Of a stretch of 36,867 nucleotides of DNA, positions 2,302 through 32,852 are shown piece after piece. The notes beneath the pieces were generated by a model. It worked only from the letters and a program-made list of their open reading frames with translations, was not told the DNA's origin and made no database searches. This DNA comes from Chloroflexota bacterium (GTDB lineage: Bacteria; Chloroflexota; Anaerolineae; VGOG01). Position 1 is the first letter of the stretch. Every line of letters begins with the position of its first letter. The translations under genes and the position numbers were made by a program. The stretch spans positions 1 through 36,867 of the forward strand of contig VGOG01000011.1 of the NCBI GenBank assembly GCA_016875995.1. Direction: 5' to 3'.

Positions 2302-2330
2302 TCGGATTGCCCGATTTGGGAGACAGACGC

Positions 2331-3989: not shown

Positions 3990-4017
3990 ACGGGGAATTC
4001 CCCGTTTATTCCCTGTT
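3978..4017. promoter_or_regulatory. 40-bp near-perfect palindrome over the AlbA stop codon
   Basis: The left arm AACGGGGAATAAACGGGGAA is followed with no spacer by its reverse complement, with 19 of 20 positions matching. Each arm itself contains a GGGGAA/TTCCCC motif twice. It overlaps the TAA of the AlbA_2 gene and ends 33 bp before pglZ. There is no T-run, so it is not a standard intrinsic terminator. It could be a dimeric regulator site, an mRNA processing hairpin tuning pglZ expression, or a mobile palindromic unit. Confidence 0.7.
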
Positions 4018-4050
4018 CTATCTCCGAATTGGGGTAAGCGAGGTAAGGCC

Positions 4051-6567
4051 ATGCTGATTCAAGCCTTAACTGACCATTTCAATTCCTACTTCTACCGCGC
4101 CAAACACCACGACACCGTCCTCTGGTTCGACCCAGACCAGGAATACGTTGCCCTGCTGGATCACCTGACCGACATTCCCTTGTGGCGCTACGAGGATAGC
4201 CTGCTCCAAGTGCGCTACCGGCTGGTCAAGCGCGCGCCAGGCGAGCGAGCTGTCGTCTACCTGCCCTTGTCTCAGAAGGATGCCGAAATCCTGCGTCCCT
4301 TCTTCGCTACCAGCCTCATCTTCCGTGAGCGCCTGTACCGCTTTCTGCGCCGGCAGGGCCTGGACTTCCCCGATGATCCAGAAGTGGCCCACGAACTGCG
4401 TGCTCTACTGCCTCGCCTGGCTGCCCGTTCGGTTGGCAAGGGACGTGTGTTTTGGGAGTACAACCTGGCCAACCTGGAGCGAGCGAGGGAGACGCTGCTA
4501 GGCAACTTCGACGATGCCTTGCTCCGCTTCCTGACCCAGCCACAGGTTCAACTGACCGAACTGAAGCGGGAAAAGCTGGACGGCCTCTTCTTCGCCCAAC
4601 TGGAGAGCGCCTACGGGCTGGCTGCCGATCCAGAGGACGATCCGGATGAGGTCGCCCGCCGACTGGCTGCCCAATTGATTCTCACCTGTGCCTACATGCA
4701 GGCTGAGATCAACCTGCGTGAGCACGACAGCGAACTGGAGGATTTCCCCTACCCGGCCCGGCTGGCTGAGCCCCTCCACCGCGAGCGCTGTTGGACCTTC
4801 GTGACCCGCTGGCAAAACGACCGTACCTACAGTATGACCTACGCCCGCCTGGCCGACGAGCTCCAGATGCGCTACGACCTGACGCGCTGGGCCGTGGGCC
4901 TGCCCCATGACGTCGGCTTGACCCTCCGAGACACCTTCGCCAACGTACAGGAGGCCCTCTGGACCCACGTCGAGAAGACTTTGGACTCGCTGGCGAGCGA
5001 GGACGAGTGGCGCAATTGGTTGCAGGCTCACGACGGCTCCATCGCCGCACGAGCCGACGACTTCTGGGCTCGCGAAGGTCGGGACCCCGGTTGGCGGCTG
5101 CTGGTCCTGGCCAGAGACCTGCTGACCGCCATTCACTGGGTACGGCAGCAGCTCGATCGCTTGACACGACCGTCTGAGGTGCTCCGAAGCTATGCCGAAG
5201 GGTGGTACTGCACTGATCAGGACTATCGCCGCCTGCGCGAAGCCCTGGACGCCTCCCCCCGCTCCCACGACCGGCTGCGCGACCGCTGCGCTCGCAGCTA
5301 TCGGGACATCCTGCGCCGCATGAACGACCGTTTCTGCACCTTGCTGGAGGCGGAAGGTCGTTGGCCCCCAGAAGCTCTGCCCGCTCAGGATGCCTTTTGG
5401 GCCCAGGCCATAGGCGAACCGAAACCTGTCCTGAGCCGAAGCCCTGAACGGAGTGAAGGGGTAGCCGAAGGAAAGGGACGGCGGGTGGCCATCATGTTCG
5501 TGGATGCCCTGCGCTACGAACTGGGCCAGGAACTGCGAGAGGCACTGGAGAGCGAGAACGCAGGTGATCGGCGACAGCTCGCCGCGCGCCTCGCTGCCAT
5601 CCCCACCGTAACCTCCATCGGCATGGCCGCCCTCCTGCCCGGCGGCGACCGCCGGCAGGTGGCCTACAGTGATGATTGGGAGGTCACCATCGAGGGCAGC
5701 GGCAATCTGAAAGAGAAAGGCGCCCGGCGACAGTGGCTGGAGCGACATCTGAAAGGTGCAGCCTTCTACAACTTGGAGGAGTTGCTGAACACGCCGACCG
5801 ACCGAATACCTGAAGTTGCTGCCTACATCATCTTCGACACGACACTGGACGCGGTGGGTGAAACAGCTAGTACACTGGCCTGGAACACCTTCAGCACACT
5901 GCTCCAATCGGTCAAGAAAGGGGTGCACAAGCTCCTGGCGCTGGGCGTGAACGAGGTCCACGTGGTGGCCGACCACGGCTTCCTGCTGCTGGACGAGGTT
6001 GGGGAGCACGAGAAGGTCAGCGTGCGAACGGTCCCAGCACCAGCCAAGAAGTCTCGCTACCTGGTAGGGCCACATCTGGGCAAGACGGAACAGTTGCGCT
6101 TCCCGGTGCCGGGCAGCCAGGACCTTGTAGCCTGGTTCCCCCGGGGCATCGGCTGCTTCCGTACGCCAGGCCCATACAACTACGTACACGGGGGACTGTC
6201 GCTTCAGGAGTTGGTAGTTCCCCATCTGACGGTGACCCAACAGGTACTGGGGCGACCCGTGGGAGTGCAGGTGAAGCTGCCAAAGGTGATCCGCAGTGCT
6301 CAATTCAAGGTCGTCTTGCAGCCCGTATCGGCCGACATCTTCGACCAGCCTCGACAGGTGGCTCTCAGCCTGGAGAAGGCCGGCCAGGCGGTGATTCCAC
6401 CCCTGAGCTGCATCGTTCGTCCCAGCGAGCCGACGACGATAGACGTTTTCCTGCCCATGGGCTGTGGCCTGGAGCCAGGCGATCAGGTGCGCTGGCTGCT
6501 CCGCGATGCTGTCACCGACGAGGTGCTGGCCGAGCAGGAGGCCGTCAGTGAAGTAGATCTGTGGTGA
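4051..6567 (+). CDS. pglZ: BREX alkaline-phosphatase-fold protein PglZ
   Basis: An 838-aa protein of the length usual for type I BREX PglZ. The N-terminal half (to ~450) is helical and family-specific. The alkaline-phosphatase-superfamily PglZ domain follows: VAIMFVDALRYELG (~479-492) carries the first metal-binding Asp, PTVTSIGMAALLPGG (~518-532) holds the Thr/Ser-rich motif, and VVADHGFLLLDE (~638-649) gives the second metal-binding Asp-His pair. PglZ is an obligate BREX component, probably a metal-dependent nuclease or phosphohydrolase. A widespread-looking interspersed repeat is translated in frame as RSPERSEGVAEG (~463-474) just before the domain. Start 4051 has a GAGGTAAGG-like site upstream. 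It follows the AlbA gene by 61 bp containing half of a palindrome, and precedes brxL by 16 bp. Confidence 0.93.
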   Translation: MLIQALTDHFNSYFYRAKHHDTVLWFDPDQEYVALLDHLTDIPLWRYEDSLLQVRYRLVKRAPGERAVVYLPLSQKDAEILRPFFATSLIFRERLYRFLRRQGLDFPDDPEVAHELRALLPRLAARSVGKGRVFWEYNLANLERARETLLGNFDDALLRFLTQPQVQLTELKREKLDGLFFAQLESAYGLAADPEDDPDEVARRLAAQLILTCAYMQAEINLREHDSELEDFPYPARLAEPLHRERCWTFVTRWQNDRTYSMTYARLADELQMRYDLTRWAVGLPHDVGLTLRDTFANVQEALWTHVEKTLDSLASEDEWRNWLQAHDGSIAARADDFWAREGRDPGWRLLVLARDLLTAIHWVRQQLDRLTRPSEVLRSYAEGWYCTDQDYRRLREALDASPRSHDRLRDRCARSYRDILRRMNDRFCTLLEAEGRWPPEALPAQDAFWAQAIGEPKPVLSRSPERSEGVAEGKGRRVAIMFVDALRYELGQELREALESENAGDRRQLAARLAAIPTVTSIGMAALLPGGDRRQVAYSDDWEVTIEGSGNLKEKGARRQWLERHLKGAAFYNLEELLNTPTDRIPEVAAYIIFDTTLDAVGETASTLAWNTFSTLLQSVKKGVHKLLALGVNEVHVVADHGFLLLDEVGEHEKVSVRTVPAPAKKSRYLVGPHLGKTEQLRFPVPGSQDLVAWFPRGIGCFRTPGPYNYVHGGLSLQELVVPHLTVTQQVLGRPVGVQVKLPKVIRSAQFKVVLQPVSADIFDQPRQVALSLEKAGQAVIPPLSCIVRPSEPTTIDVFLPMGCGLEPGDQVRWLLRDAVTDEVLAEQEAVSEVDLW
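5425..5470 (+). repeat. Interspersed palindromic-type repeat absorbed into pglZ
   Basis: The stretch with CTGTCCTGAGCCGAAG, CCTGAACGGAGTGAAGG and GTAGCCGAAGG resembles the small 'CTGAGCGGAGTCGAAGG' repeat family seen scattered in environmental Chloroflexota and related genomes (recalled resemblance, not searched). It is in frame and encodes a Ser/Glu/Arg/Gly linker directly before the PglZ metal-binding domain. Confidence 0.55.
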
Positions 6568-6583
6568 CGATGGAGTGTTTACG

Positions 6584-8638
6584 ATGCAAAAGACGCTTGT
6601 GTTGGATGAACTGGATCAGAAGTTGGCCGATGCCTTTCCGGGTCGGGTAGTGCGCAAGGACCTGGTACGTCAGACCAAAGTTGGCTTCAACGTGCCGGTC
6701 TACGTGCTGGAGTACCTGCTGGGTCAATATTGCGCCTCGACTGATCCAGAGGTCGTGGCTAAGGGCCTGAACTACGTACGCGAGACCCTGAGCCGCAACT
6801 ACGTCCGCGCTGACGAGAGCGAGAAGGTCAAGGCCATCACCCGCCAGAAGGGCCGCCACCGCATCCTGGATAAGGTCAAGGCCCGCCTGGACACCAACGT
6901 GAACCACTTCTGGGCTGAGTTGGTCAACCTGGGGGTCAAAGACGCCCTCATTGCCGATGACATCGTCCACGGCTATGACAAACTGCTGGTCGGTGGCATC
7001 TGGGCCCTGGTTGATCTGATCTACGACCCGGACTTCCAGGAGAGGGGGGTCACGCGACCATTTGCCATCGAGCGGCTCAAACCCATCCAGCAGCCCTCGA
7101 CGGACCTGACCGATTTTCTGGCTGCGCGGGGCAGCTTCAGCACCGACGAATGGCTGGACATGCTATTGCGCAGCCTTGGCCTGGAGCCAACCCATCCCGA
7201 CTTCACCCGGCGCAAGAAACTGCTGTACCTGATGCGGCTGATCCCCATGGTCGAGACCAACTACAACCTGCTAGAGCTCGGGCCGCGGGCAACCGGCAAG
7301 AGCTTCGTCTACCGTGAGATCTCCCCCTACGCCATCTTGATCTCAGGAGGACAGACGACCGTAGCCCAGCTTTTCATGCATCTGGGCACCGGACGCATCG
7401 GTCTGGTCGGGCTATGGGACGTGGTCGCCTTCGACGAGGTGGCCGGGGTGCGCTTCAAAGACCCTAACGGCGTCCAGATCCTCAAGGACTTCATGGAATC
7501 AGGCAGCTTCTCCCGCGGCAAAGAAGAGGTGCCAGCCGAAGCAGCCATCGTGTTCAATGGCAACCTGGACGGCGACGTGGCCACGCTGGTCAAGACCTCG
7601 CATCTCCTGCAACCACTGTCGGACCAGATGCAAGACCTGGCCTTGATTGACCGCATCCACTTCTACCTGCCGGGCTGGGAGATGGACAAGATGAGGCCGG
7701 AATACTTGACCGATCATTACGGCCTGGTGGTGGACTACATCACCGAGGTTTGGCGCTCCCTACGCAAGACCAGCTACGCCGATCTGGTGGATAGGCACTT
7801 CAGCCTGGGCAGCCACCTGAATCAGCGAGACGTGCGGGCCGTGCGCAAGACGGTCTCCGGCTTGGTCAAGCTACTGCATCCAGACGGTCAGGTGTCCCAG
7901 GATGAACTGGAGGAGTACCTGCAACTGGCCATGGAAGGCCGGCGGCGGGTCAAAGAGCAACTCAGGCGTATGGGCGGTCTGGAGTTCTGGGCGGTCAACT
8001 TCTCTTACATTGACCTTGAAACCCGCCAGGAGACCTTCGTCGCCATGCCAGAGCAGACCAGCGGCGGGCTAATCACCCCGGGGCAACTCGATCCGGGCGT
8101 GACCTTCACCGTGGGCACCGATCAGGCTGACGGCCGACTGGTCATCTTCCGTATCGAGGCCCAGGCCATGAAAGGGAGTGGTAAGCTGCGTGTAACCGGC
8201 TCGCCATCCAGGGCGGTTCGAGATGCCGTTGACACAGCCCACACCTATCTCAAGTCCCAGTACTCGCGGCTGGGCTTGAGCAAGAATCCCAACGACTACG
8301 ACCTGCACGTGCAGTTGGTCAACCTGATGGGAGCCAGGGAGGGAAGCGAGACAGGGGTGGCCTTCTTCGTGGCTATGGTGAGCGCACTATTGGGCAAGCC
8401 GATGGTGGAGTCGCTGGTAGTATTGGGGGAGATGAGCCTGCGAGGAGGACTGCTGAAGGTGGATCTCCTAACCGAGCGCCTGCAACTGGCCATGGACAAC
8501 GGGGCCAAGCGCGTGTTGCTCCCCGCCGAGAACAAGCGTGACTTCGCCGACATCCCCTCCGACGTGCTGGACAAGCTGCAGATTATCTTCTACTCCGACC
8601 CCATCAGCGCTGCTTTCCGGGCTATGGGTCTGGAGTAG
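6584..8638 (+). CDS. brxL: BREX AAA+ / Lon-like protein BrxL
   Basis: A 684-aa BrxL. The N-terminal BrxL domain spans ~1-200. The AAA+ core has Walker A GPRATGKS (~233-240), Walker B VVAFDE (~280-285) and a sensor-like FNGN (~324-327). A C-terminal Lon-type fold spans ~530-684. In the Lon domain the catalytic serine motif DGPSAG is replaced by EGSETG (~586-591), and the lysine of the LKEK motif becomes LTER (~629-632). Both dyad residues therefore appear lost by alignment, which argues against proteolysis and fits the view of BrxL as a DNA-acting AAA+ ring. The ATG at 6584 has GGAG 8 nt upstream; the GTG at 6575 in the ORF track is less likely. It sits 16 bp after pglZ and directly abuts the next ORF. 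Confidence 0.93.
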   Translation: MQKTLVLDELDQKLADAFPGRVVRKDLVRQTKVGFNVPVYVLEYLLGQYCASTDPEVVAKGLNYVRETLSRNYVRADESEKVKAITRQKGRHRILDKVKARLDTNVNHFWAELVNLGVKDALIADDIVHGYDKLLVGGIWALVDLIYDPDFQERGVTRPFAIERLKPIQQPSTDLTDFLAARGSFSTDEWLDMLLRSLGLEPTHPDFTRRKKLLYLMRLIPMVETNYNLLELGPRATGKSFVYREISPYAILISGGQTTVAQLFMHLGTGRIGLVGLWDVVAFDEVAGVRFKDPNGVQILKDFMESGSFSRGKEEVPAEAAIVFNGNLDGDVATLVKTSHLLQPLSDQMQDLALIDRIHFYLPGWEMDKMRPEYLTDHYGLVVDYITEVWRSLRKTSYADLVDRHFSLGSHLNQRDVRAVRKTVSGLVKLLHPDGQVSQDELEEYLQLAMEGRRRVKEQLRRMGGLEFWAVNFSYIDLETRQETFVAMPEQTSGGLITPGQLDPGVTFTVGTDQADGRLVIFRIEAQAMKGSGKLRVTGSPSRAVRDAVDTAHTYLKSQYSRLGLSKNPNDYDLHVQLVNLMGAREGSETGVAFFVAMVSALLGKPMVESLVVLGEMSLRGGLLKVDLLTERLQLAMDNGAKRVLLPAENKRDFADIPSDVLDKLQIIFYSDPISAAFRAMGLE

Positions 8639-14505: not shown

Positions 14506-15060
14506 TCACCTGTCGTATGGTTCATTTCTCAAAAACGCGAGAACGTCCCGGCGGAACTGCTTGCCGCCGGCCGGATGCCCCATGTTCGGATAAAGGCAAA
14601 GCCTGGCGTTGGGAATCCCGGCCGCCGTCTCACGGAACAAGGCTGGGGTGTAAAAGGGGTCTCGATCGCCCACGACCACCAGGGTTGGCGCAGCGATCTC
14701 GCCCAGGCGGTCCTTGAAGGCGTGCCGGTCTTCGGCCTCCACGGTGACGACTAGATCGCCGGGGTCTTGTGGCGCGTTCAACGACAGCAGCCACGCGCTG
14801 AACCAGACGAGCGGGCGGGAGAGCCATTTTCCGAGGCCGGCCTGCGGGAACACCGAGCCAACCAGGATGGCCCAGGCCTTCATCCACTGCCCTTGCTGCG
14901 CCAGGCGGGCGACCTCCAGCTGCAACTGCTTGGCCGTGTCGCTCAGCGTGTGCGCGCTCGAGTGGATGACCAGGCGACGCACCAGGTCGGGGTGGTCGGC
15001 GGCGAAATGCTGGACGATGGAGCCGCCGGTCGAGATGCCCAGCACGTCCACCGGCCCACG
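14506..15060 (-). pseudogene. Alpha/beta hydrolase, N-terminus removed by IS982
   Basis: The C-terminal ~185 residues of an alpha/beta hydrolase begin just before the nucleophile elbow (VDVLGISTGGS). They continue through PTLVVVGDRDPFY (acid-bearing strand) and PNMGHPAGG (the catalytic His). The oxyanion-hole N-terminal strands are missing: at about 15060 the sequence turns into IS982 transposase read on the opposite strand. The ORF-track start at 15078 lies in the IS. It would have been the upstream member of the GNAT/YoaP/SRPBCC/ICMT operon, whose promoter is thus also lost. Confidence 0.8.
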
Positions 15061-15486
15061 CCTGCATTTCACCACCACTCTGGCAGGGATAGTGGATTCG
15101 TGGCTGCTGGCTCCAGGTGCTCTTCATGATCTGACCCCAACACCAGAGTTGCTGCGAACCTATCACGACAAGTTGGCTGTCGGTGACAAAGCGTACAACG
15201 ATGCTGATTTGGAGACGGATTTGCGTCGAGAGCAGAACGTTCTTCTTCGTCCTCTGCGCCGTAAGAACCAGCAGAACAAGTGGCCTGAGGCCCTCGCTTA
15301 TGCCTTACAGAAGGCACGGCGGCTGATTGAGACTGCAGGTAGTGTGCTGACGACTGTCTTTCGCATCAATCACCCGGGTGCCCGCTCTTGGTCAGGCGTC
15401 GTAGCCCGTACAGCCACGAGATTGCTCGCTTACAATATGGCCTTTGTGCTCACTTATGTCCTGGAGTTCGTCTTCGGAAACTAGCA
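15061..15486 (+). pseudogene. IS982-family transposase, 3' fragment (copy 1)
   Basis: The C-terminal ~140 residues of an IS982-type DDE transposase: IVDSWLLAPGALHDL, then VGDKAYNDADLE with a catalytic Asp, then LLRPLRRKNQQNKWPEAL. It ends at 15484, and the adjacent terminal repeat GGAAACTAGCA (15476-15486) matches that of copy 2. The 5' half is absent; the fragment is fused at ~15060 to the truncated hydrolase. The first ~115 codons of the ORF-track entry (from 14714) are antisense hydrolase. It is divergent in sequence from copies 2 and 3, so it arrived independently. Confidence 0.8.
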
Positions 15487-15558: not shown

Positions 15559-15687
15559 GCCTAACGGACGGAGCTCAGCGGCGTGGCGGGTGAACCGAGG
15601 CTGCGTCGCCCGCAGGCGCACTGGCGAGCCGAAACAACTCGGAATTGGGGCCCAGGTAGCCACGTCAACTGCATGCGTTCGTTAGCC
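15559..15687 (-). other. attC-like recombination site (C), long form
   Basis: On the minus strand the site starts with R'' GGCTAAC and ends with R' GTTAGGC (perfect GTTRRRY). The outer ~25 nt of each end pair imperfectly (AACGAACGCATGCAGTTGAC with GAGCTCCGTCCGTT). Length 129 bp, within the range of attC sites. It lies at the 3' side of the acyltransferase gene, as expected for a gene cassette. Confidence 0.65.
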
Positions 15688-15745
15688 GCGTTTGTTCGGC
15701 TCAATGCCTATTGCGCTGACTCTTGGCTAGGCCCTCTAGACGAAT

Positions 15746-16906
15746 TCAGAACATCTCGCTGAGTAGTGGTGCACGCTTCAGTATTGCGGCGCTGATACCC
15801 CATGCCAGCAGCACTGTCGAAACCACAGCCAATGCCGCCTTGACGCCCAATGGTAGTTCAACGGACACTAGCAGATAGGCCAGCGGGTAGAGAATAAGCG
15901 GATGAACGTAGTATATGCCGTATGAATTGACGGCCTGGCTCCGCCAGAAGCGCCCCGCCCCGTTTACCCAGGTCCGGAATAGAGCCAATGCCGTCATCAG
16001 AGCCGTCAGACAGAAGATGTTGAAGGCCACACCCGTTGCAACAAACACAAGTGGCCCTGGTTCCGATCCCAATCGGCACGTCAAGTAACCGAGTCCAGCC
16101 AAGACCGCAACAACTCCCCATGTCCAAACGCGTGGGCAATACCCTCCAGGCGTGAACCAGGCGCGCAGGTGTGCATAAACCCCCAGGCAGAAGTAGCCCA
16201 GGTAGAGCGGTACACGCACGGGCTGAAAAACCAACAGGTAACCATGCGTCCAGGCATCAATCGGGTACGCGAGATTGACCCAAAGAAAGCTCCCGGTAAC
16301 GATCACGCTAAATACAGCCAACGCGAGCCATGGCCTTGAGCTAGGTCCTTGTTCGAGCGCCCGCATCCGTGGGCTGATCTCGTAGATCCAGCACAGCAAA
16401 GCGAATAAAAGCATCAGCATCCCGAGGAACCAATACACAGACTGTTGAAATACGAACGGGCTCCAGAAATCTACCGCCCAGAACTCCCACAAGCTCTTGG
16501 AAGTCCCGAGCGACCAATAACCGATATAGGTGGTTGGAGGCGCCAGCAAGAGTGCGCCTAAAACCCAAGGAGCGCCAACCCGGATTGCCTTTTCCTTGAG
16601 AAATTGGTGAGTTCCACGTTTCCGCAGCGACGGATACGCAAAGTAGCCGGCCACGAAGAACAGGATGGGCATGATCGGAACGTCAATCAACAGCACCAAT
16701 TGAGTGAAGGTCAAGTCAGAGTGCTTATCAAGGACATACCACCACTGTGGCGGGTATGCCATATACGTTATTGAAGCGTGAAGAACGATCACCAGCCAGA
16801 TGGTAGCCGCTCGAAGGTTATCTAGGAAGTACAACCGATTTGATCCGCCTGAAGAATGCGATCCTATGGCTGCATTTTGGAGAGCGTCAGCTGGCGAGGC
16901 CGTCAT
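15746..16906 (-). CDS. Acyltransferase 3 (OatA-like) membrane protein, cassette-borne
   Basis: A 386-aa polytopic membrane protein of the acyltransferase-3 family, which O-acylates sugars or lipids. The family signature YFLDNLRAATIWLVIVLHA (first helix with the catalytic His) sits near the N-terminus. FFVAGYFAYPSLRKRGTHQF follows, and about ten hydrophobic helices can be counted. The C-terminus has NSYGIYYVHPLILYPLAYL. The ATG at 16906 has GGGGGA 7 nt upstream; the GTG at 16933 lacks such a site. It is flanked by attC-like sites at both ends (15559-15687 and 17025-17099) and reads in cassette orientation. The ~118 bp between attC and start could hold its own promoter. Confidence 0.88.
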   Translation of the reverse strand: MTASPADALQNAAIGSHSSGGSNRLYFLDNLRAATIWLVIVLHASITYMAYPPQWWYVLDKHSDLTFTQLVLLIDVPIMPILFFVAGYFAYPSLRKRGTHQFLKEKAIRVGAPWVLGALLLAPPTTYIGYWSLGTSKSLWEFWAVDFWSPFVFQQSVYWFLGMLMLLFALLCWIYEISPRMRALEQGPSSRPWLALAVFSVIVTGSFLWVNLAYPIDAWTHGYLLVFQPVRVPLYLGYFCLGVYAHLRAWFTPGGYCPRVWTWGVVAVLAGLGYLTCRLGSEPGPLVFVATGVAFNIFCLTALMTALALFRTWVNGAGRFWRSQAVNSYGIYYVHPLILYPLAYLLVSVELPLGVKAALAVVSTVLLAWGISAAILKRAPLLSEMF

Positions 16907-17024
16907 AGCGATTCCCCCGACTCGAAAAGGCACTGTTAAGGGAGTTTATCATCGTTTGCTTTCGGGCATGGCGCGATCGGTTGCCGACGAGTTTATGATG
17001 TCGGGGAGTTGGCCACGAGTAAGC

Positions 17025-17099
17025 GGCTAACGGCGGCGCATCACCCGCTGGCCGACGAGCGCAGCGAGGAGGCCAGTCGGCACCATGCGCTTGTTAGCC
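17025..17099 (-). other. attC-like recombination site (B)
   Basis: Read on the minus strand, it has R'' GGCTAAC and R' GTTAGCC (each one position off the consensus, but symmetric). The inner arms are CGACTGGCCTCCTCGC and GCTCGTCGGCCAGCGGG. Length 75 bp. The TAA of a residual cassette ORF lies inside R'' (GGC-TAA-C), a common cassette arrangement. Confidence 0.75.
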
Positions 17100-17180
17100 A
17101 GCGCCCCGCTTGAGGTATTTGACATACACCAACTCTGGATCATCTTCGTCCAGATATGGAGAACATCCTATTCTGTAACT
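17094..17180 (-). pseudogene. 3' tail of a cassette ORF cut by IS982
   Basis: Between attC B and the IS982 terminal repeat a minus-strand frame reads YLDEDDPELVYVKYLKRG and terminates at the TAA inside the attC R'' core. It has convincing protein composition and no start codon. The rest was removed or displaced by the IS982 insertion at 17186. The family cannot be recognised from ~28 residues. Confidence 0.55.
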
Positions 17181-17185
17181 TTATC

Positions 17186-17964
17186 TGCTAGTTTTCGGCC
17201 TGATGTGAGGCCTGGATGATTTGCCAAAATGGCCGTCATGCCGTAGATGAAGCCTATCGCAGACTGTTCCCGCCCGGGAAGCGACTACGGAGACGCGGTC
17301 CTGAGCCGGACTTCTCAGATAGCGAGGTCATCACCATCGGGCTCATCTGCGATACCTGCTTCCACGGTCATGAGGAACTCACGATGTCCTTTACAGGAGA
17401 TGGACCCCGAAGACAGGCTACGCATCGGCGATAGCGCACCGGCGTTTGTGTGCCCCTACATGCGCGGTTGGCAATGCACCACGGTCTTCGGGCCAGAGGG
17501 CTGCGGGGTAGTGAAAGCAAGCGGGCCAAGCTGTTTGGATTCCGTGTGCACCTCACCACCACGGTGAAGCAGATAGTAGATGAGTGGCTCCTGGCTCCGG
17601 CGGCCCACCACGATGTCAAGATCTTGCCCTTTGTCCTGAAAGATCGTGAGGACCTGCAGGTCATTCTGGACAAGGCTTACAATGACGAAGATCAGGAATT
17701 GCGAATGTGGCGTGAACAGGACATTCTCTTGTTGCCGCTGCGCCGCAAGAACACGAGGGCACAGTGGGAACCCGACGTGAAAGCTGTCTTGAAACGTGTC
17801 CGACGACGAGTCGAGACAGCGCTAGTGTCTTGACCCAGGTCTGGAGCATTAATGGCCTGGAGCTAGGAGTCTGTCAGGTATCATCGCGCGAATTGCAACG
17901 CGAATCCTGGCTCATACTATCAGCTTCATCGTCGCACCACAGCTACTTCCAGCGGAAACTAGCA
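17186..17964 (+). mobile_element. IS982-family element (copy 2) with terminal inverted repeats
   Basis: The left end TGCTAGTTTTC (17186-17196) and right end GGAAACTAGCA (17954-17964) are imperfect inverted repeats. They enclose a decayed IS982 transposase. The element sits inside the cassette array, between attC B with its ORF tail and the CPBP gene. No clear target duplication is seen. Confidence 0.75.
17216..17963 (+). pseudogene. IS982 transposase with deletion and several frameshifts
   Basis: The N-terminal part (PDFSDSEVITIGLICDT, HGHEELTMSF) stops at about 17395, where roughly 125 bp present in copy 3 are missing. Reading resumes in another frame as MDPEDRLRIGDSAPAFV. It shifts again near 17510, runs VHLTTTVKQIVDEWLLAPAA to KAYNDEDQELRMWREQDILL, and shifts once more after 17830. 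The last segment is recognisable only as fragments. Inactive. Confidence 0.8.
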
Positions 17965-18003
17965 ATTAGAGTATATTTCTCTTGATGAAGGGCGGTCGGC
18001 CTC

Positions 18004-18876
18004 CTAGAATCCCCCCAGAACTGCGACCGTCGAGAAGATGACAATATCTTGGAAAAAGTGGATGATCCATGCGGCGAGGAATCCCTGCGTCTCGTACATG
18101 CTTCGACACATATACCAACCGAGTACGCCACTCATGATGACCCCAAGGATACCGGCCGGGGCTCCGTAGTAGTGGGCGATGCCAAAATAAGCAGATGCAA
18201 CCATGACAAGGTAATCCTTCGGGAGCTCTTCCTTAAGCGGGCCAAGTACCGAACTCCGATAGACCACTCCCTCACTTAAGGAATTCACGAGCGCGAGAAG
18301 GACGATGAGTGGCAAGAGTGGAGGTAGGCGGCCCAAGGTCGCTGGCTGTGAGAACCCGCTCACCGTGAGTAACGTCAGCAGGAGGGTCCCTGCAGCGATG
18401 AGCAGCGCCGAGATGACGGAGAGCCTTCCCCAACCGATCTTGCCTTCCTCTATTCCGAGCCAGGCGATGCGTGACGCCTTCGCCGACAGATCACCCTTTA
18501 CAAGGTAGACCTCGTGTGGCGATCGGTACAGGAGTAGTAGCACCCCCACGACTGGAATGATCCCCAGGAACTTGAGTAGGATTGCGCCGCCGAACTGTCC
18601 GCTAAAACTGCCTGGCGCAAAGATCGCCTGCCACCAGGTAGATGCCTGGGCTTGCTCAACGACCATCTGCACAATGATGATGGCAGTCAGCAAGAAACCG
18701 TACCGTGCCAGACTCCTCTCCCTGGCACCGACGCGAAGGTAGAGGGTGAAGGTGAAAAGGAGAACGGCTTTGGCCAAGAACCACCAGGATGGCAGGAACC
18801 CTACCGACTCCCTGACAACGATGTCCGGGAGCAGTGACGCAATAAGGGTGAGGACGCCCACCAGAATCAACTTCAT
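18004..18876 (-). CDS. CPBP/CAAX-type intramembrane protease-like protein, cassette-borne
   Basis: A 290-aa membrane protein with about eight hydrophobic helices and a CPBP (Abi/CAAX protease) core near the C-terminus: NSLSEGVVYRS, YFGIAHYYGAPAG and AAWIIHFFQDIV. The first motif has EG where the canonical family has EE, so one catalytic acid position deviates, while both histidines are kept. CPBP proteins act in prenyl-protein processing or bacteriocin immunity and are frequent in integron cassettes. The start is set at the ATG (MKLILVG) at 18876, with GAGGAG 7-8 nt upstream; upstream ATGs at 18882 and 18891 lack spacing. It lies 72 bp after the DUF6544-like gene with no attC between, so the two may share a cassette. 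Confidence 0.8.
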   Translation of the reverse strand: MKLILVGVLTLIASLLPDIVVRESVGFLPSWWFLAKAVLLFTFTLYLRVGARERSLARYGFLLTAIIIVQMVVEQAQASTWWQAIFAPGSFSGQFGGAILLKFLGIIPVVGVLLLLYRSPHEVYLVKGDLSAKASRIAWLGIEEGKIGWGRLSVISALLIAAGTLLLTLLTVSGFSQPATLGRLPPLLPLIVLLALVNSLSEGVVYRSSVLGPLKEELPKDYLVMVASAYFGIAHYYGAPAGILGVIMSGVLGWYMCRSMYETQGFLAAWIIHFFQDIVIFSTVAVLGGF

Positions 18877-18948
18877 ATTCATACTCCTCATGCACTGCTG
18901 TCCTTTCTGTTTAACCCGTTTTATGCAATTACTATCAATCCATCTTGC

Positions 18949-19809
18949 TCATCTGTTACTCAGTTCATATTCAATTCGCTGAATCCGCCCACGCCAGTAT
19001 GGCTTCGCTCCGTCAGAAAGTAACCATGTCACTTCACCTTCCAGCGGAACCAACATGCCATCCCGAATTTCGTAGTCCCAGATTCGACCTTGCCAAGGGG
19101 TTGAAACCTGCTCCCCATCCACTTCGTGGTATCTGCCATCCGAATGAACTGAACTGATTAACCCTTGAGCATCAAATTTAAACACCAGCGTAACCGTCGT
19201 TGTGCCATCGGTGATCGTGGCACTGGCTTGTGTGTCATCAATTGCTGTCCAAGCCACACCCTGACTTGGAAGAAGTGCTGTTGGATACCACGCCGCCTCA
19301 GCGAAAAAGCGCATTAACTCTCCATGTGCCAGTTCTGGGGTACTGGGCTGTTTCATTACTGTCAATAGCCCGAATAGCTTTGCCGTCAAAACACCCTCAC
19401 CTGCAACATAGGCATCATGGACATGAATGGTCATTCCCGGCACCATACGAATGCGAGCGTCCCAAACAAAACCTGGACGCTGGATGATGACACGCTGAGT
19501 TGAACTGAACGGCTTCCATTGCTCTCCAGTCTCGCTCATGTTGAAGGTGCCAGTGTGTTCTATGCTGACTGCCGTAACTAACGGTTGCCCTTCTTTCAGA
19601 ACAGTACGAAGATAGCGCTGAACAGGCGCAGGCAGCCCCTCCAATTCACGCGGGTCATACGATGTTGGGGCGATCGGCACACGTGCCGCTTCCATTTTCG
19701 CATGCAGGTCTCTCGTATCTGATTGCCAGCGGTTAGTGCCGTAGATGATTACCGCCACAATAACGAACGCCAGAACGACAAGTAAAACTGCAATCACTTT
19801 CCACCACAT
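18949..19809 (-). CDS. DUF6544-like membrane-anchored protein, cassette-borne
   Basis: A 286-aa protein with one N-terminal membrane helix (VIAVLLVVLAFVIVAVIIYG). A beta-rich exported domain follows, with LPAPVQRYLRTVL, FKFDAQGLISSVHSDGRYHE and TPWQGRIWDYEIRDGMLVPLEGEVTW. These features match the DUF6544/DUF6920 family of unknown function. The ATG is preceded by AAGGAGGATTAGAC and begins 17 bp after the attC A core, typical for the first ORF of a cassette. Confidence 0.82.
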   Translation of the reverse strand: MWWKVIAVLLVVLAFVIVAVIIYGTNRWQSDTRDLHAKMEAARVPIAPTSYDPRELEGLPAPVQRYLRTVLKEGQPLVTAVSIEHTGTFNMSETGEQWKPFSSTQRVIIQRPGFVWDARIRMVPGMTIHVHDAYVAGEGVLTAKLFGLLTVMKQPSTPELAHGELMRFFAEAAWYPTALLPSQGVAWTAIDDTQASATITDGTTTVTLVFKFDAQGLISSVHSDGRYHEVDGEQVSTPWQGRIWDYEIRDGMLVPLEGEVTWLLSDGAKPYWRGRIQRIEYELSNR

Positions 19810-19825
19810 GTCTAATCCTCCTTCT

Positions 19826-19897
19826 GCTTAACGGTTGGCATAACCCGCTTGCGATGAGCGTAGCGAGGGGCAAGTCGGGTTCATGCCATTGTTGGGC
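19826..19897 (-). other. attC recombination site (A), perfect consensus cores
   Basis: Read on the minus strand, the 72-bp site begins GCCCAAC (perfect RYYYAAC) and ends GTTAAGC (perfect GTTRRRY). Imperfect inverted arms AATGGCATGAACCCGACTTGC and GCAAGCGGGTTATGCCA fold into the usual hairpin, with a central CTACGCTCATC loop. It separates the small membrane protein gene from the DUF6544-like gene, exactly where a cassette boundary is expected. Confidence 0.85.
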
Positions 19898-19972
19898 GGA
19901 GCGATTCCAGCCCCCCTGAGCCGAGGTAGTGAGCGCACAGGACGCCTTGCTAGAGCAACAGATCAAGCCGCG

Positions 19973-20386
19973 CTACTTGCTTCTTGCCCGATTCAAGATG
20001 TCAGCCACTGCCAGAATGACCCCGATCCCCATCAGGCCATAACCAACGAGTCTATCCTCCCCGAAGATGATCCCTGCCAAGACGAACGCGAAGGCCAAAC
20101 TGGCCAAAGGCGTGATTCTGTTCTCTGCCTTCTTCCCACGCACGAGGAAGACGACGATGCAGAATAGGTTCGGTATAGCATTCTGAAAAGTTGACTTATA
20201 CTGAACTTTGGCTATAATACCTGGTGCTTTGACTGGGCAATTTGGATTGAAACGCCGCTTCCGACCGACGCCCATATTATGCAATCGAAGTTCCTTTTTG
20301 TCAAACAACAGGAGGCAACTTGCTTTGCGAAACTCGAGTTGTCCATAACCCAAGTTTGCACCAAAAAACGATTTTGTGCAAGTCAC
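19973..20386 (-). CDS. Small membrane protein, cassette-borne, 5' end uncertain
   Basis: The credible part is the C-terminal ~70 residues with two or three hydrophobic helices (IPNLFCIVVFLVRGKKAENR, LAFAFVLAGIIFGEDR, GLMGIGVILAVADIL). It looks like short uncharacterised membrane proteins of integron cassettes. The first ~65 residues (FFGANLGYGQLEFRKASC...) are of different character, and no good ribosome site is seen. The original start may have been lost in a junction near 20180-20200, and the present upstream ORF may be accidental. Its stop lies 75 bp before attC A, in cassette orientation. Confidence 0.5.
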   Translation of the reverse strand: MTCTKSFFGANLGYGQLEFRKASCLLLFDKKELRLHNMGVGRKRRFNPNCPVKAPGIIAKVQYKSTFQNAIPNLFCIVVFLVRGKKAENRITPLASLAFAFVLAGIIFGEDRLVGYGLMGIGVILAVADILNRARSK

Positions 20387-20433
20387 AAACCGCCCCGGAT
20401 TTTGTCTAAACTCAAGTTCTACAAGACGTACCA

Positions 20434-20777
20434 GCCCTGCTCATCAACGTCAGAAATCTCTCCAAGAGTTACAGAACCGGTCAGGCTGAGACAAAGGCGC
20501 TGCGGGGCGTCAGCCTGGAATTGGAGAAAGGCGGAATTGGGGTTATCCTGGGTCCGTCTGGATCGGGGAAATCCACAGCAAGTCCCCGCTGGATGTGGGA
20601 GAAGTATTGGCGGCGATTGGGATGGAAGATGAGAAAAACCGCTTCCCACGGGAGCTTTCCGGCAGCGAGCAGCGTGTGGCGCTGGCGCGGGCGGTGGTCA
20701 AAAAGAGGAAAGCGCAGCATGAGGCTTTCGCCGGTCAGTTCTTGACTCCAGCCTCGAAACTGTCCGAAGGGAGGTAG
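20434..20777 (+). pseudogene. ABC transporter ATPase, internally deleted
   Basis: The N-terminal end of an ABC ATPase is clear: LLINVRNLSKSYRTGQAETK, then ILGPSGSGKST (Walker A). Directly after the Walker A the frame shifts and most of the domain is missing. It resumes as GEVLAAIGMEDEKNRFPREL, then SGSEQRVALARAV (ABC signature, Q in place of the second G), and ends at 20777. Walker B and the H-loop are absent. The sequence type resembles MacB/LolD-like export ATPases. The next gene starts 3 bp downstream, so the two were one operon. Confidence 0.8.
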
Positions 20778-21960: not shown

Positions 21961-23364
21961 ATGACCTACCAACCTACGCTGGAATCGGTGAAAACCCATC
22001 CCCTGCCAAACTGGTATGACGGCGCCAAGCTTGGGATCTTTGTTCACTGGGGTGTATACAGCGTGCCTGCCTTTGCACCGCCAGGCGAAATGGCGGCGGC
22101 GAAATTGCTCAAGGGTGAAATAGGGTTTGCCCAATCACCTTACGCCGAGTGGTATCAAAACAGCCTGCGCATCCAGGGCAGCCCCACATACCGGCATCAC
22201 GTCGCAACCTACGGCGCGGACTATCGCTACGAGCAGTTTGCACCACAGTTCAATGAGCTGCTCCGGACATGGGATCCTGCCTCATGGGCGGAGCTATTTG
22301 CCCGCGCCGGGGCGCGCTACGTTGTCCTGGTCACCAAACACCACGACGGTTTTCTGATGTGGCACAGCCGCCATGCCAATCCGCGTCTCGAAAAATGGCA
22401 GGCAGCGCGCGACGTGGCGGGCGAGCTCAGTCGCGCCATCAATGCCCAAGGCCTCAAAATGGGCTTCTACTACTCCAGCCTGCTCGACTGGAGCTTCACC
22501 CAGAAGCCCATCACGTCACTCGCCGAACTCGTCGCCGGGAGCGACACCAGCCACGCCTATCTCGCCTACGTCGAAAAGCATTGGCTCGAGCTCATCGAAC
22601 GCTACGACCCCTGGATTTTATGGAGCGATATCGGATATCCACCTGGCTACAGCTTGCCCACGCTCTTCGCGCATTTCTACAACCGCAAGCCCGAAGGCGT
22701 GGTCAATGATCGCTGGATGCAACTGCCCCGATTCTTCTTCAGCAAACTGGGGCGCGCCATTCTCGGACAAATGACCAGACGCCTGCCAGGCGGTGAGCCG
22801 CCCAAGGTCCCGCACTGCGATTTTGTGACGCCCGAATACGCCACTTTCGACCACATCACAACGCACAAATGGGAGACCTGCCGGGGCATCGGCAACTCGT
22901 TCGGTTACAACCAGTGCGAGAACGCCAGGGACTATCAAAAGGCGGACGATCTGATCCGCCTGCTGGCGGACGTCGTCAGCAAAAACGGCAACCTGCTCCT
23001 GAATGTGGGACCCTACGCCGATGGGACCATCCATCCCTTGCAGGTGACGGCGCTCGAGGGGCTGGGCCGCTGGCTGAAGGCCAACGGCGAGTCCATCTAT
23101 GACACACGCCCGTGGATCCGCTTCCAGGATACCGGCGCCAATGGCGCGGAGGTGCGGTACACAGCCAAAGAGGGGGCGTTGTACGCCATCGTCACCAGGC
23201 TGCCGGCCAGCAAGGTGCTTTGCCTGCCGCTGGGGTTCGCGGGCGGCGCAACGCTGCTCGAAACAGGAGATGCGTTGGCGGTCGAACGCTCAGGTGGGAA
23301 TCTCCGGATCGCCTTCCCTCCCCGCATATCTGAAGAATCTATCCCGGTCGTCAGAATCCGGTAG
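21961..23364 (+). CDS. GH29 alpha-L-fucosidase
   Basis: A 467-aa glycoside hydrolase of family 29, which releases alpha-linked L-fucose with retention. The N-terminal barrel starts WYDGAKLGIFVHWGVYSVPA (~18-37). VTKHHDGFLMWHS (~124-136) follows, and the nucleophile Asp is in WILWSDIGYPP (D223). The C-terminal beta-domain begins around 380. No signal peptide is seen, so it acts in the cytoplasm or is exported another way. The ORF-track start at 21820 lies inside the preceding gene; the ATG at 21961 has GGGAG upstream. The last four codons and the stop lie in a 121-bp sequence repeated at 34.4 kb. Confidence 0.93.
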   Translation: MTYQPTLESVKTHPLPNWYDGAKLGIFVHWGVYSVPAFAPPGEMAAAKLLKGEIGFAQSPYAEWYQNSLRIQGSPTYRHHVATYGADYRYEQFAPQFNELLRTWDPASWAELFARAGARYVVLVTKHHDGFLMWHSRHANPRLEKWQAARDVAGELSRAINAQGLKMGFYYSSLLDWSFTQKPITSLAELVAGSDTSHAYLAYVEKHWLELIERYDPWILWSDIGYPPGYSLPTLFAHFYNRKPEGVVNDRWMQLPRFFFSKLGRAILGQMTRRLPGGEPPKVPHCDFVTPEYATFDHITTHKWETCRGIGNSFGYNQCENARDYQKADDLIRLLADVVSKNGNLLLNVGPYADGTIHPLQVTALEGLGRWLKANGESIYDTRPWIRFQDTGANGAEVRYTAKEGALYAIVTRLPASKVLCLPLGFAGGATLLETGDALAVERSGGNLRIAFPPRISEESIPVVRIR

Positions 23365-23471
23365 CCTCTTTGCCGCTCTGACGCTATGGGACTTGAGCGG
23401 CAGGATCGTCAGGTTCAGGGTTGCTGAGGGCCTGCGGCCTTGTCAGCGCCCATGCCCGCCCTGATCGCCGC
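23351..23471. repeat. 121-bp direct repeat, copy 1
   Basis: Aligns without gaps to 34422-34542 with 6 visible mismatches. It begins TCAGAATCCGGTAG, containing the fucosidase stop, and ends CCCTGATCGCCGC. It contains a hairpin, GCTGAGGGCC paired with GGCCTTGTCAGC (23423-23447). The ~140 bp from here to the transporter gene hold nothing recognisable. Confidence 0.9.
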
Positions 23472-28712: not shown

Positions 28713-31700
28713 TCAGGCCATGGACTTGCCGATCTCCTTCAACTCCTTGACCACCTCCTCCGGCAGGAGGGCCGGCTCGACGCCCAGCAGCCTGCAGGTC
28801 ATGAGTTTGTGGGCGGTGATCTCGATGATCTCGGACATGTCGGCGGCCCGTCGCAGGCTGGAGCCGGCCACCACCAGGCCGTGGTTCTGCATCAGCACGC
28901 CCAGACCGTGCTGGAGCATGGCCTGGGCGACTTCCTTGCCCAACTGGTCCGTGCCCGGCATGATGAAGGGCACCACCGGGATGTCGCCGAAGAAGGCTGC
29001 ATCGGCGGAGATCGGTTGGAAGTGCGTGCCGGTCAAAGCCATCAAGGTAGCATAGGGGGCATGGGTGTGGATGACAGCACTGATGTCGGGCATGTTCTTG
29101 TAAATTTCGCAGTGAACGCGCCGCTCGCTGGAGGCGGTATAGTCGGTCTCGTTGAGGATTTTGCCGTCCAGGTCAATGCGCACCAACACGTCTAGATGCA
29201 GGTCGCCCTTGAAGATGGCATTGGGGGTGATCCAGATCTCGTTCGGGTTGTCGTCGCAGCGGGCGCTGATATTGCCGCCGGTGGAGGTGATCAACCCCTT
29301 GGCATACAGCTCGTTGGCGACCTGCAAGATCTGGTCGCGCACGTCGTTGGCCCTGGGTACAGCGGCTACGGCCGGTGCATATACGACCGTTTGCCCGACA
29401 GCCGGGGCAGGCGCGGCGGCAGGGGCCGGAGCGGCGGCAATCTTGGTCAGGTCGCCCGGATCACCGACCCTGGCACGCGCCTCGCTGTATAGGCGAGACA
29501 TGTTGCCCTGGATGCGCATGAAGGCCATGGCCTTGCCGGTGTCGCCGGAGAAGGAAAGCTTGCCACTCGTAGCAGCCTTGGTGGCATTGACCCGGCCGGT
29601 GAACATCCCATCCAGGATGTCGGCGGCCATCTTGAGCCTGACGTCCGGCTCACGCGGCGGATTGCCCAGCCCGGCGTCTACCTGGCCGTCAATGAAGCTC
29701 AGGAAGAACGCCTGGTCTATGTCCTTCACGGTAAACAGGAAGACCACGTTCTTGCCCCTGGCAAAGCTGGCCATCGCCGGGTCGGCGGTGATTGCAGCCG
29801 TGAACTCTTTCAGGATGGCGACCATCTTCTGGCGGCCGGCGCTATGCGCGGCGGGGACCGCCTGAGCGGCGACCGCGGCCAGGGTGGATGGGAGAGGGGC
29901 CGAAGTGGCTGGCGCGGCGGCAGGCGCGGCCGGGACACCTGATTGCGTCAGGTGACCGGGATCACCAACCCTGGCACGCGCCTCGCTCTTTCCCCTGGCA
30001 AAGCTGGCCATCTCCTTGTCTGCGGCGATGCGAGTGGTGAATTTCTTTAGAATGGCGGTCATTTTCTGGCGTACGGTATTCGTGTCCATGCTTGGAACCT
30101 TTTCGGTCAGCACCGCCGGCTGCGGGACGGCGGCGGGTAGGGGAGCGGCCCGGGTTTCAGCGGCCTTTTCCTTCTGGGCGGCCACGTCCAGGTCAGTCGC
30201 GCCTGGGCCAGGGCCAGCGGCGCGCTCCTGCAGCCTGGCCTCGTCCATCCGGCGGGCCCCCAGCCAACTGAATGATTCGAGGGCGGCCGGGTTGAGGATG
30301 TACTTCGGGCGCTGGCCGGCCAGCAGCAGCTTGATCTCGTTGTAGATGATCTCGCCCTGGTGGGCGGCCACCTCCTGGGTGTTGCCGGCCACGTGCGGGG
30401 TGGCGATCACATTGGGGAAAGCCAGCAGTGGATCGTCGGCGCCCGGCGGCTCGACCGGGAAGACATCCGTGGCGAAGCCGCCCAGCTTGCCGGACTGCAG
30501 CGCGGAGAGCAGCGCCTCCTGGTTGATCAGCGCCGCCCGGGCAGTGTTGACCAGGAAGGCGCCCGGCTTCATGCGCTCGAAGGCGGCCGCGTTCAGCATG
30601 CCCCGGGTCTCATCCGTGACCGCAGCGTGCAGGCTGACGAAGTCGCTCTCGGCCAGCAGGCGCTCGAAGGAGACCTTCTCGGCGCCCATCAGGGCGGCTC
30701 CTTCGGCGCTGACGAACGGATCGAAAAGCAGCACACGCGCCCCGAAGGGCAGGAGCCGGGCGGCCACCTTGCGGCCGACGGCGCCGCCGCCGATCAGGCC
30801 GATCGTCTTGCGCCACAGCTCAACCCCCAGGAACTCTTCGTGGGCCTGGCCCAGGCGGCCCAGGTCGCCGGCCTCCCCGCCAGGCTGGCGCAGGAAGGAC
30901 GAAGCACCCTGCAGCCGGCGGGCCAGCATAAGCAGGAACCCCAGCGTCAGGTCGGCGACTGCGTCCGCGTTGCGGGCGGGTGTATTGGCGACCGGCACGC
31001 CGGCCGCCGTGCAGGCTTCGATATCCACGTTGACCGGGTTGCCGCGGCAGACCACCACCAGACGCAGGTCGGGCAGCTTGAGCAGGCAGGCGGCGTCAAC
31101 GATGTCCACCTCGGTCACGAACACCTGGTAGCCTTGCAGTGCCTTGACCAGGTCGTCGCCGGTCAATAAGATGCCTTCGGTGCGATAGGGTTTGTAGGTC
31201 ACCTCGCCGATCTCGCCCAACTGCTTCAGGGCCAGCTCATCCACCTCGGCGGCGATGTAGATCTTCGGGCGGAAGGAAGCCGCCGCCGATCCGCCCTCGC
31301 CGGCCAGCGTCCCGGAAAGCATGACCTGGGTGATCTGCGTGGCGGCCGCACTGTCGGCTGGGCGGCGCTCCTGGCGCAGCGACTGCCAGTCGGCGTACAG
31401 CGCCTGGTAGGTGGACGAGAGCTGCGGGTCGGGCTGGTGCTCGCGTGCCGGGCGGGCCAGGGCCTTGGCGCCCGCCGCCAGGTTGGGGAAGAGACCGGCG
31501 GCCACACCGGCGCAGATAGCTGCCCCCAGGGCCGTGGCTTCCGCCGAGGCGGCCACCCGCACCCGGCAGTTGAGCAAATTGGCGATGGTCGCCGTCCAGA
31601 AGGTCGAGCGGGTGATCCCGCCGCCCAGGCAGACCTCGCCGGGCTTTTGGCCGGAGAGCTGCGCGATCTGGTCCAGGTTGGCGCGCACGGCGTAAGCCAT

Positions 31701-32852
31701 GCCTTCCAGGACGGCGCGCCCCACGTCGGCCCGGCCCTCGTCGCCCAGGCGGGCGATGAGCGAGGAGAAAGTCAGGTTGTCGACCGGGGGCTCGAGCGCC
31801 GAGGCGTTGAAGACCGTCGCCCCGATGGTCGAATGGATGCTGTGTGCGCCGGGAACAGAGGCCTCCGCCTCGGCCGCCAGGCGGGCGACCGGGTTGGGCG
31901 CCTCGGCGTGGAGCAGGCGTGCCACCCATTCCAGGGTGAAGCCCATCTGCCCGGCGTTCGTCTCGAGCACGTACAGGCCGGGGATGACGTGCAGGCCGGT
32001 CCAGATGCGCATTTCCGGGTCAATGGTCAGCTTTTCGACCGCCATTTGGACCGAGGTGGTAGTGCCGGCAATCACACCCACCTGGCCGGAGGCAACCACG
32101 CCTGAGCCAAGCAGGCCGCACTGCGTGTCCGGCCCGCCGACCGCCACCGGGATGCCGGGATGTAGCCCCAGGTTGGCGGCGGCCTCCCTGGTCAGCTTGC
32201 CGAGTCGGCTGCCGGCCGGCTGGAGCGGCGGCAGGACCTTCTCGGACAGGCCCAGGGACTTGATCAGGGCCGAGGCCCACTTGCGGGATTTCAGGTCGAA
32301 CAGCAGGCTCTCGGCCGCCTGGGCCGGCTCGGAGGCCAGCTCGCCGCTCAGCATGTAGCCGACCCAGTCGCTGATCGCCAGGGCGGCATGCAGCTCCTTG
32401 TACTTCTCCGGGCGGACTTCCTTCAGCCACATCAGGCGGGCGGCCATGAAGACCGGGTTGGGGTAATGTCCCGTGATCTTGTAGATCTCCTCGCCGCGCT
32501 CCATCGCCAGGTCCATGCCCTGGTCAACCGCGCGCGTATCGCGGTTGGGTGCCGCCAGCAGCACCCGTCCCTTTTTAGCGATCGCCACCAGGCTGTGGCG
32601 CATGGAGGCGGCGGCCACGCCGGCCACCTGGGCCGGTTCGATCCCGGCCTGGAGCAGGACAGCCCTGGCGCACTCGCCCAGCGTCCGCCAGACCAGGTCG
32701 GTATCCAGCCTGAAGGCAAAACCGCCGGCCTCCGGCTCGGGCGGCAGGCTCCAGGGCCGGAAGACGCTGGTGATTTCCCCCGTGGCGGCGTTGACCAGCA
32801 GGCAGCGTCCCCCGCCGCCACCGACGTCCAATCCCATCAGATACTTTGACAT
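28713..32852 (-). CDS. Fusion: LsrK-like FGGY kinase - 2-hydroxyacid dehydrogenase - SCP2 - class II aldolase
   Basis: A 1379-aa uninterrupted ORF with at least four domains. Residues 1-~497: FGGY carbohydrate kinase most like autoinducer-2 kinase LsrK (LMGLDVGGGGGRCLLV, AASMRHSLVA, ISDWVGYMLSGELA, GLHVIPGLYVLE, CLGGGI). ~528-860: D-isomer-specific 2-hydroxyacid dehydrogenase with GLIGGGAVG and the R603, E801, H820 catalytic set. 922-970: truncated SCP2. ~1005-1125: full SCP2-like sterol carrier domain. ~1168-1379: class II aldolase with TGGNIS, zinc ligands in IHTHAPYA (H1262, H1264) and QNHG (H1324). Ala/Pro linkers join the parts. The ATG has AGGAGATGAC upstream, and the gene follows the aldehyde dehydrogenase by 38 bp. 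Phosphorylation, redox and aldol cleavage of one sugar-like substrate is inferred. Confidence 0.88.
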   Translation of the reverse strand: MSKYLMGLDVGGGGGRCLLVNAATGEITSVFRPWSLPPEPEAGGFAFRLDTDLVWRTLGECARAVLLQAGIEPAQVAGVAAASMRHSLVAIAKKGRVLLAAPNRDTRAVDQGMDLAMERGEEIYKITGHYPNPVFMAARLMWLKEVRPEKYKELHAALAISDWVGYMLSGELASEPAQAAESLLFDLKSRKWASALIKSLGLSEKVLPPLQPAGSRLGKLTREAAANLGLHPGIPVAVGGPDTQCGLLGSGVVASGQVGVIAGTTTSVQMAVEKLTIDPEMRIWTGLHVIPGLYVLETNAGQMGFTLEWVARLLHAEAPNPVARLAAEAEASVPGAHSIHSTIGATVFNASALEPPVDNLTFSSLIARLGDEGRADVGRAVLEGMAYAVRANLDQIAQLSGQKPGEVCLGGGITRSTFWTATIANLLNCRVRVAASAEATALGAAICAGVAAGLFPNLAAGAKALARPAREHQPDPQLSSTYQALYADWQSLRQERRPADSAAATQITQVMLSGTLAGEGGSAAASFRPKIYIAAEVDELALKQLGEIGEVTYKPYRTEGILLTGDDLVKALQGYQVFVTEVDIVDAACLLKLPDLRLVVVCRGNPVNVDIEACTAAGVPVANTPARNADAVADLTLGFLLMLARRLQGASSFLRQPGGEAGDLGRLGQAHEEFLGVELWRKTIGLIGGGAVGRKVAARLLPFGARVLLFDPFVSAEGAALMGAEKVSFERLLAESDFVSLHAAVTDETRGMLNAAAFERMKPGAFLVNTARAALINQEALLSALQSGKLGGFATDVFPVEPPGADDPLLAFPNVIATPHVAGNTQEVAAHQGEIIYNEIKLLLAGQRPKYILNPAALESFSWLGARRMDEARLQERAAGPGPGATDLDVAAQKEKAAETRAAPLPAAVPQPAVLTEKVPSMDTNTVRQKMTAILKKFTTRIAADKEMASFARGKSEARARVGDPGHLTQSGVPAAPAAAPATSAPLPSTLAAVAAQAVPAAHSAGRQKMVAILKEFTAAITADPAMASFARGKNVVFLFTVKDIDQAFFLSFIDGQVDAGLGNPPREPDVRLKMAADILDGMFTGRVNATKAATSGKLSFSGDTGKAMAFMRIQGNMSRLYSEARARVGDPGDLTKIAAAPAPAAAPAPAVGQTVVYAPAVAAVPRANDVRDQILQVANELYAKGLITSTGGNISARCDDNPNEIWITPNAIFKGDLHLDVLVRIDLDGKILNETDYTASSERRVHCEIYKNMPDISAVIHTHAPYATLMALTGTHFQPISADAAFFGDIPVVPFIMPGTDQLGKEVAQAMLQHGLGVLMQNHGLVVAGSSLRRAADMSEIIEITAHKLMTCRLLGVEPALLPEEVVKELKEIGKSMA
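29442..30089 (-). repeat. Internal SCP2 duplication, first copy shortened in frame
   Basis: Two related blocks occur inside the fusion gene. Both begin RQKM-AILK-FT, contain MASFARGK and end SEARARVGDPG. In the upstream copy the ~88 residues between FARGK and SEARAR are missing, an in-frame loss of about 264 bp. The shared DNA is obvious at both joints (CCCTGGCAAAGCTGGCCAT and CCTGGCACGCGCCTCGCT). Confidence 0.8.

Follow-up and report, generated by a model that had tools for sequence, protein, structure and literature searches.

The DNA analyzed here, the whole of a contig of 36,867 bases (C11; the window) in a draft genome of a Chloroflexota bacterium (coded G000), very probably carries a chromosomal integron that has been stripped of its integrase gene, that is, a CALIN formed by deletion. 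The evidence for this explanation is an attC site recognized by a covariance model and by its anatomy (site C), two further sites recognized by anatomy and by comparison with shuffled sequences (B and A), the homology of a retained leader, and an intact IntI elsewhere in the assembly. The draft, a metagenome-type assembly, has 4.29 Mb in 414 contigs and is 94.9% complete and 5.26% contaminated. The features of the locus are as follows (strand in parentheses):

14714-15484 (+): DDE transposase of an insertion sequence (Pfam DDE_Tnp_1, E 3.5e-8); bounds the far end of the array
15559-15687 (−): probable attC site A, long type, 129 nt; R'' GGCTAAC, R' GTTAGGC; arms CAT[G]CAGTTG[A]CGTGG / CCACG CCGCTG AGC
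15746-16933 (−): cassette gene, acyltransferase 3 family membrane protein, 395 aa (Pfam E 1.6e-28)
17025-17099 (−): probable attC site B, 75 nt; R'' GGCTAAC, R' GTTAGCC; arms GCGCAT[G]GTGCCG[A]CTGGC / GCCAG CGGGTG ATGCGC, with three mismatched positions between its extrahelical bases
17186-17966 (+): degenerate insertion sequence that separates the CPBP gene from site B within the second cassette
18004-18891 (−): cassette gene, CPBP/Rce1-like membrane protease, 295 aa (Pfam E 3.1e-11)
18949-19809 (−): cassette gene, DUF6920/DUF6544 protein, 286 aa (Pfam E 2.2e-82 and 5e-75)
19826-19897 (−): attC site C (covariance model and anatomy), 72 nt; R'' GCCCAAC, R' GTTAAGC; arms TGGCAT[G]AACCCG[A]CTTGC / GCAAG CGGGTT ATGCCA, with extrahelical G and A
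19898-20159 (−): truncated first cassette, the 3' part of a small membrane-protein gene (from its translation)
20160-20319 (+): intI/attI leader remnant; one end lies about 58 nt short of the attI crossover, the other immediately ahead of the start codon of the lost intI
20191-20218 (+): likely intI promoter TTGACT-16-TATAAT, seen in the sequence and pointing to the lost intI
20310-20316 (+): Shine-Dalgarno sequence AGGAGGC of the lost intI (leader alignment)

The leader of a lost integrase gene

The leader remnant is 92% identical to the corresponding sequence on contig C74 of the same genome, 83% identical to that on contig C125 of a second genome (G044), and 78% identical to that on contig C212 of G000. 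Across the 60 genomes used for the IntI and leader searches (G000 plus 59 relatives, almost all of which belong to the same class), it matches only four other loci, each abutting an intI start; the gene is intact in two of these (C212 and G044:C125) and broken in the other two (C74 and G019:C26). In the leader alignment, both promoter hexamers are identical in C74, C212, and G044, and the similarity ends 3 nt past AGGAGGC, immediately ahead of where the relatives have their ATG. On the cassette side the limit of the similarity is 20160; the attI crossover that is common to the other loci (...ACTCAATA-GTTAGCC) would follow about 58 nt farther on, and the GTT core is missing from the window. Because the similarity stops at the intI start and short of the attI crossover, both intI and the attI core were deleted.

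No intI was found in the window, either with TIGR02249, which was run over the whole genome, or by tblastn of IntI; of the marks of a complete integron, the window has neither an intact adjoining intI nor an attI with its crossover core. The earlier note had described an integrase-less, CALIN-like array with no integrase and no attI in the window. The absence of the integrase stands; as to attI, the core is indeed gone but the leader is kept. The array likewise fits the definition of a CALIN but is more than integrase-less, since it retains the footprint of the deleted intI and the genome encodes an intact IntI on C212.

Directly beyond the lost intI, positions 20430-20760 (+) hold the remains of an ABC-transporter ATPase gene, with Walker A kept and with an internal gap and a change of frame; read from the sequence, these remains are a second sign of decay on that side.

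The earlier note had also suggested looking for intI on flanking contigs; the assembly has an intact gene on C212 and a broken one on C74. The C212 IntI (320 aa) scores 485 bits with TIGR02249 against the family cut-off of 265 bits; in an alignment it keeps the IntI-specific region and R138, H269, R272, H295, and Y304, that is, it is a tyrosine recombinase with the extra domain specific to IntI and the catalytic residues. The same contig carries an attI, a PIN-domain toxin gene cassette, and a long attC, with a murE-like gene (named from its translation) on the other side. On C74, intI has an internal deletion (residues 1 to ~52 are followed by 135-169) and is accompanied by an attI, an attC, and a cassette that encodes a nucleotidyltransferase/HepT pair. 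Further attCs are found on C43, C34, C215, and C290, and an intI fragment without an attC on C70; 14 of the shortest contigs of the genome yielded no attC. The composition of C212 and C74 is similar to that of the window contig, which is weak proof of a common origin; because the draft has 414 contigs and 5.26% contamination, the two could in principle come from another organism.

Integrases are also found among the relatives: IntI scores above the cut-off in 17 of the 60 genomes, G000 included. The closest named relatives of the C212 IntI are from Chloroflexota (78% to Chloroflexi RBG_16_48_8), and in a tree it is placed among Chloroflexota IntIs, near a cyanobacterial group. The IntI of G025, from the same class, is 87% identical at the DNA level to that of a Thermoflexales bin. 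The most likely host, judged by these affinities of the integrase, is an Anaerolineae-type member of the Chloroflexota. In G002, from the same family, intI is truncated (157 aa) and an attC-like site is present. In G019, a relative from another family, the locus on C26 (1064-2279 of the locus) retains intI residues 1-70 followed by remnants of 269-316, together with the attI core, one cassette, and an attC, a decay of the same kind as that on C74. The earlier view that integrons are little documented in the host group is contradicted by these counts, and by the listing of Chloroflexi intI genes in 2008 (PMC2426708) and again in 2021 (PMC8618304).

An intact IntI in the genome and further attCs scattered on other contigs would also be expected if the integrase had placed the cassettes at a secondary site, so that the array never stood beside an intI. 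However, insertion at a secondary site would not bring an intI leader, and here a leader with promoter and Shine-Dalgarno sequence is found at the proper end of the array and oriented as it should be, with its similarity stopping at the intI start codon; we therefore consider off-target insertion very unlikely.

An artefact of assembly, in which a complete integron was split, or was mis-joined with the contigs C212 or C74, is less probable still. The draft is in 414 contigs, attC arrays break assemblies, and CALINs are overestimated in drafts (PMC9024848); however, this array is located inside a 36.9-kb contig, away from its end, its leader differs by 8% from that of C74 and by 22% from that of C212 and so belongs to neither, and the sequence next to the leader join is unique in the genome.

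The attC sites and the cassettes

The attC sites were scored with a grammar scanner that looks for R'' and R' boxes, two short spacers, and arms with two extrahelical bases 6 bp apart, and that accepts any terminal loop. The grammar was tuned on class 1 integron cassettes from plasmids; on the strand of the cassettes, most of their sites score 10-17, and scores up to about 9 arise by chance. A covariance model (R1) was built without any Chloroflexota site: its 37 attCs came from class 1 plasmids and from Pseudomonadota, Cyanobacteriota, and other phyla. In Chloroflexota loci that had been held out, R1 recovered more than 20 attCs, long ones among them; nearly all of the recovered sites are on contigs with an intI or an intI remnant. 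It gave no attC match in 55 kb surrounding genes that belong to the cassette gene families but lie apart from integrons. For the long attCs (~130 nt) a separate covariance model was considered, but MAFFT misaligned the palindromic arms and the model was dropped. A plain search of the window for RYYYAAC gave no more hits than expected by chance, so matches to the box alone mean nothing; an Rfam scan of the window gave no matches.

In a blind scan of both strands, sites C, B, and A are the three highest-scoring places of the window (19.0, 13.4, and 9.06), all on the minus strand, in agreement with the earlier description of three attC-like sites that share the orientation of the genes. The scores on the gene strand exceed those on the opposite strand (19.0 vs 4.8 for C, 13.4 vs 4.76 for B, and 9.06 vs 6.82 for A). 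Shuffled windows yielded 0.5 hits at a score of at least 9 and none at 13 or more; local dinucleotide shuffles reached the score of the site in 0 of 3000 cases for C, 0 of 3000 for B, and 1 of 3000 for A. All three sites have the R and L boxes, the extrahelical bases on one arm, and the gene orientation that characterize the attC fold.

The covariance check that had been proposed gave a divided answer. R1 finds site C with 45.6 bits (E 3.8e-9 in 79 kb and 2.1e-7 genome-wide) and site B with its exact ends at 14.7 bits, but with an E-value of 0.26; it does not find site A, although it does find some long attCs of relatives. When folded as plain DNA, site C has a z-score of −3.0 on the gene strand, and A and B fold no better than shuffles. 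Site A had been described as a perfect RYYYAAC...GTTRRRY; in fact its R'' (GGCTAAC) has one mismatch on the gene strand, and C is the site in which both boxes are perfect. At the level of sequence, site C is a proven attC, site B is a probable one, and site A is probably one as well by its anatomy and position, and is probably partly decayed; strictly counted, one site is proven by the covariance model and two are assigned by anatomy.

That the sites merely imitate attC, being either palindromes that arose by chance or ordinary REP-like repeats, is hardly credible for the array: the covariance model scores B weakly and misses A, but shuffles never reach the scores of B or C, site A has no other copy in the genome, the genome-wide E-value of site C (for which this explanation is already refuted) is 2.1e-7, and the leader is an independent line of evidence. 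For site A taken alone, such an origin is unlikely but deserves some weight. The earlier note had named identical copies of REP-like repeats elsewhere as grounds for abandoning the attC reading; site A is single-copy, no further copies of site C were found in the genome with R1, and the many near-identical genome copies that characterize REP or ordinary interspersed repeats were not seen.

The first cassette is truncated. Its gene is the frame of ORF 19973-20386 and ends before site C; the upstream part of this ORF is the leader remnant and not a real gene start, with the join at about 20160. The product of the truncated gene has no Pfam matches. The ends of the degenerate insertion sequence in the second cassette are approximate, taken from short inverted repeats, and the element resembles the insertion sequence at 14714-15484 at the protein level (tblastx); a copy of part of it (17394-17500) is found with 87% identity at 35746-35838, near the right end of the contig.

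Relatives of the CPBP protease and of the DUF6920/6544 protein are scattered, in 9 and 6 other genomes, respectively, of 199; the 16 loci with the closest relatives of the DUF6544 and CPBP genes all lack an adjacent attC. Thus, these are accessory genes but, contrary to the earlier suggestion, not evidently from families typical of cassettes.

Other features of the contig include a partial BREX defence system (1-8638, +), a few kb from the integron remnant, with genes for a PglX-like methyltransferase (truncated where the contig begins), a Schlafen AlbA_2/RecG-C-like protein, PglZ, and BrxL. An unusual fusion of sugar-catabolic enzymes is encoded at 28713-32852 (−), a single chain of 1379 aa composed of FGGY carbohydrate kinase, D-2-hydroxyacid dehydrogenase, SCP2, and class II aldolase parts; its gene lies in an 11-kb stretch that is edged by the copies of a 121-bp direct repeat (23351-23471 and 34422-34542; 95% identical).

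Class and history of the locus

A CALIN is defined as at least two attCs less than 4 kb apart without an adjacent intI (PMC9668308). With gaps of 1337 and 2726 nt between the attCs found by the grammar scan, the locus is a CALIN by the usual definition; using R1 alone with E <0.01, a single site would count toward it. Like the CALINs of IntegronFinder, the locus has three attC-like sites less than 4 kb apart, one gene orientation, and no intI alongside; it differs in that 160 nt of the intI/attI leader are kept, which the definition does not require and from which the origin by intI loss can be read. It shares with the sedentary chromosomal integrons on G044:C125 and G000:C212 the leader (78-83%), the layout of a leader with diverging cassettes, and the attC grammar, but lacks their intI and attI core. 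A further parallel is with pseudo-integrons that have a broken intI (Nemergut et al. 2008, PMC2426708; here, G000:C74 and G019:C26): in both, the platform is inactivated, the attI region and cassettes are left, and a functional intI may exist elsewhere in the genome. In pseudo-integrons, however, intI is recognizable, whereas no intI sequence is left in the window.

The routes proposed for CALINs are off-target insertion, intI loss, and rearrangement (PMC8618304); the leader remnant identifies the route here as intI loss. Such an origin is in line with PMC9024848, where CALINs are proposed to be degraded integrons, and with a survey (PMC2426708) in which pseudogenes made up nearly one third of the intI genes and several intI genes were present in more than one fifth of the integron-bearing lineages.

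We propose that the ancestral order was intI (+), a leader with promoter and attI, and cassettes reading away from it (−). One deletion or replacement would have removed intI from its start codon on, and another deletion the attI core and the 5' end of the first cassette; insertion sequences would later have entered the second cassette and the far end. We infer this order of events from the present arrangement. No relative with the FAD-oxidoreductase gene that flanks the locus was found among the 60 genomes, so neither the state before the deletions nor an empty site has been seen.

As a bottom-strand hairpin, site C would be a candidate for recombination in trans by the C212 IntI; B and A are less likely substrates. 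Single cassettes could then leave, but the platform would take up none at attI because the attI core is gone. As a guess, the retained leader may drive transcription of the first cassettes.

A wider reading, in which G000 has a distributed integron system with one working IntI (on C212) that serves several integrase-less platforms in trans, and in which the repeated loss of intI with retention of leader and cassettes is tolerated or favoured in the class and is not mere decay, is speculative and, in our judgment, improbable. The kind of locus is already known, and this integron remnant is ordinary yet well preserved. What is special is that intact, broken, and deleted intI loci with related leaders occur together in one genome; on a small scale, this allows a look at how cassette arrays persist after their integrase is lost, and the conserved leader could be used as a probe for intI-deleted integrons in other Chloroflexota.
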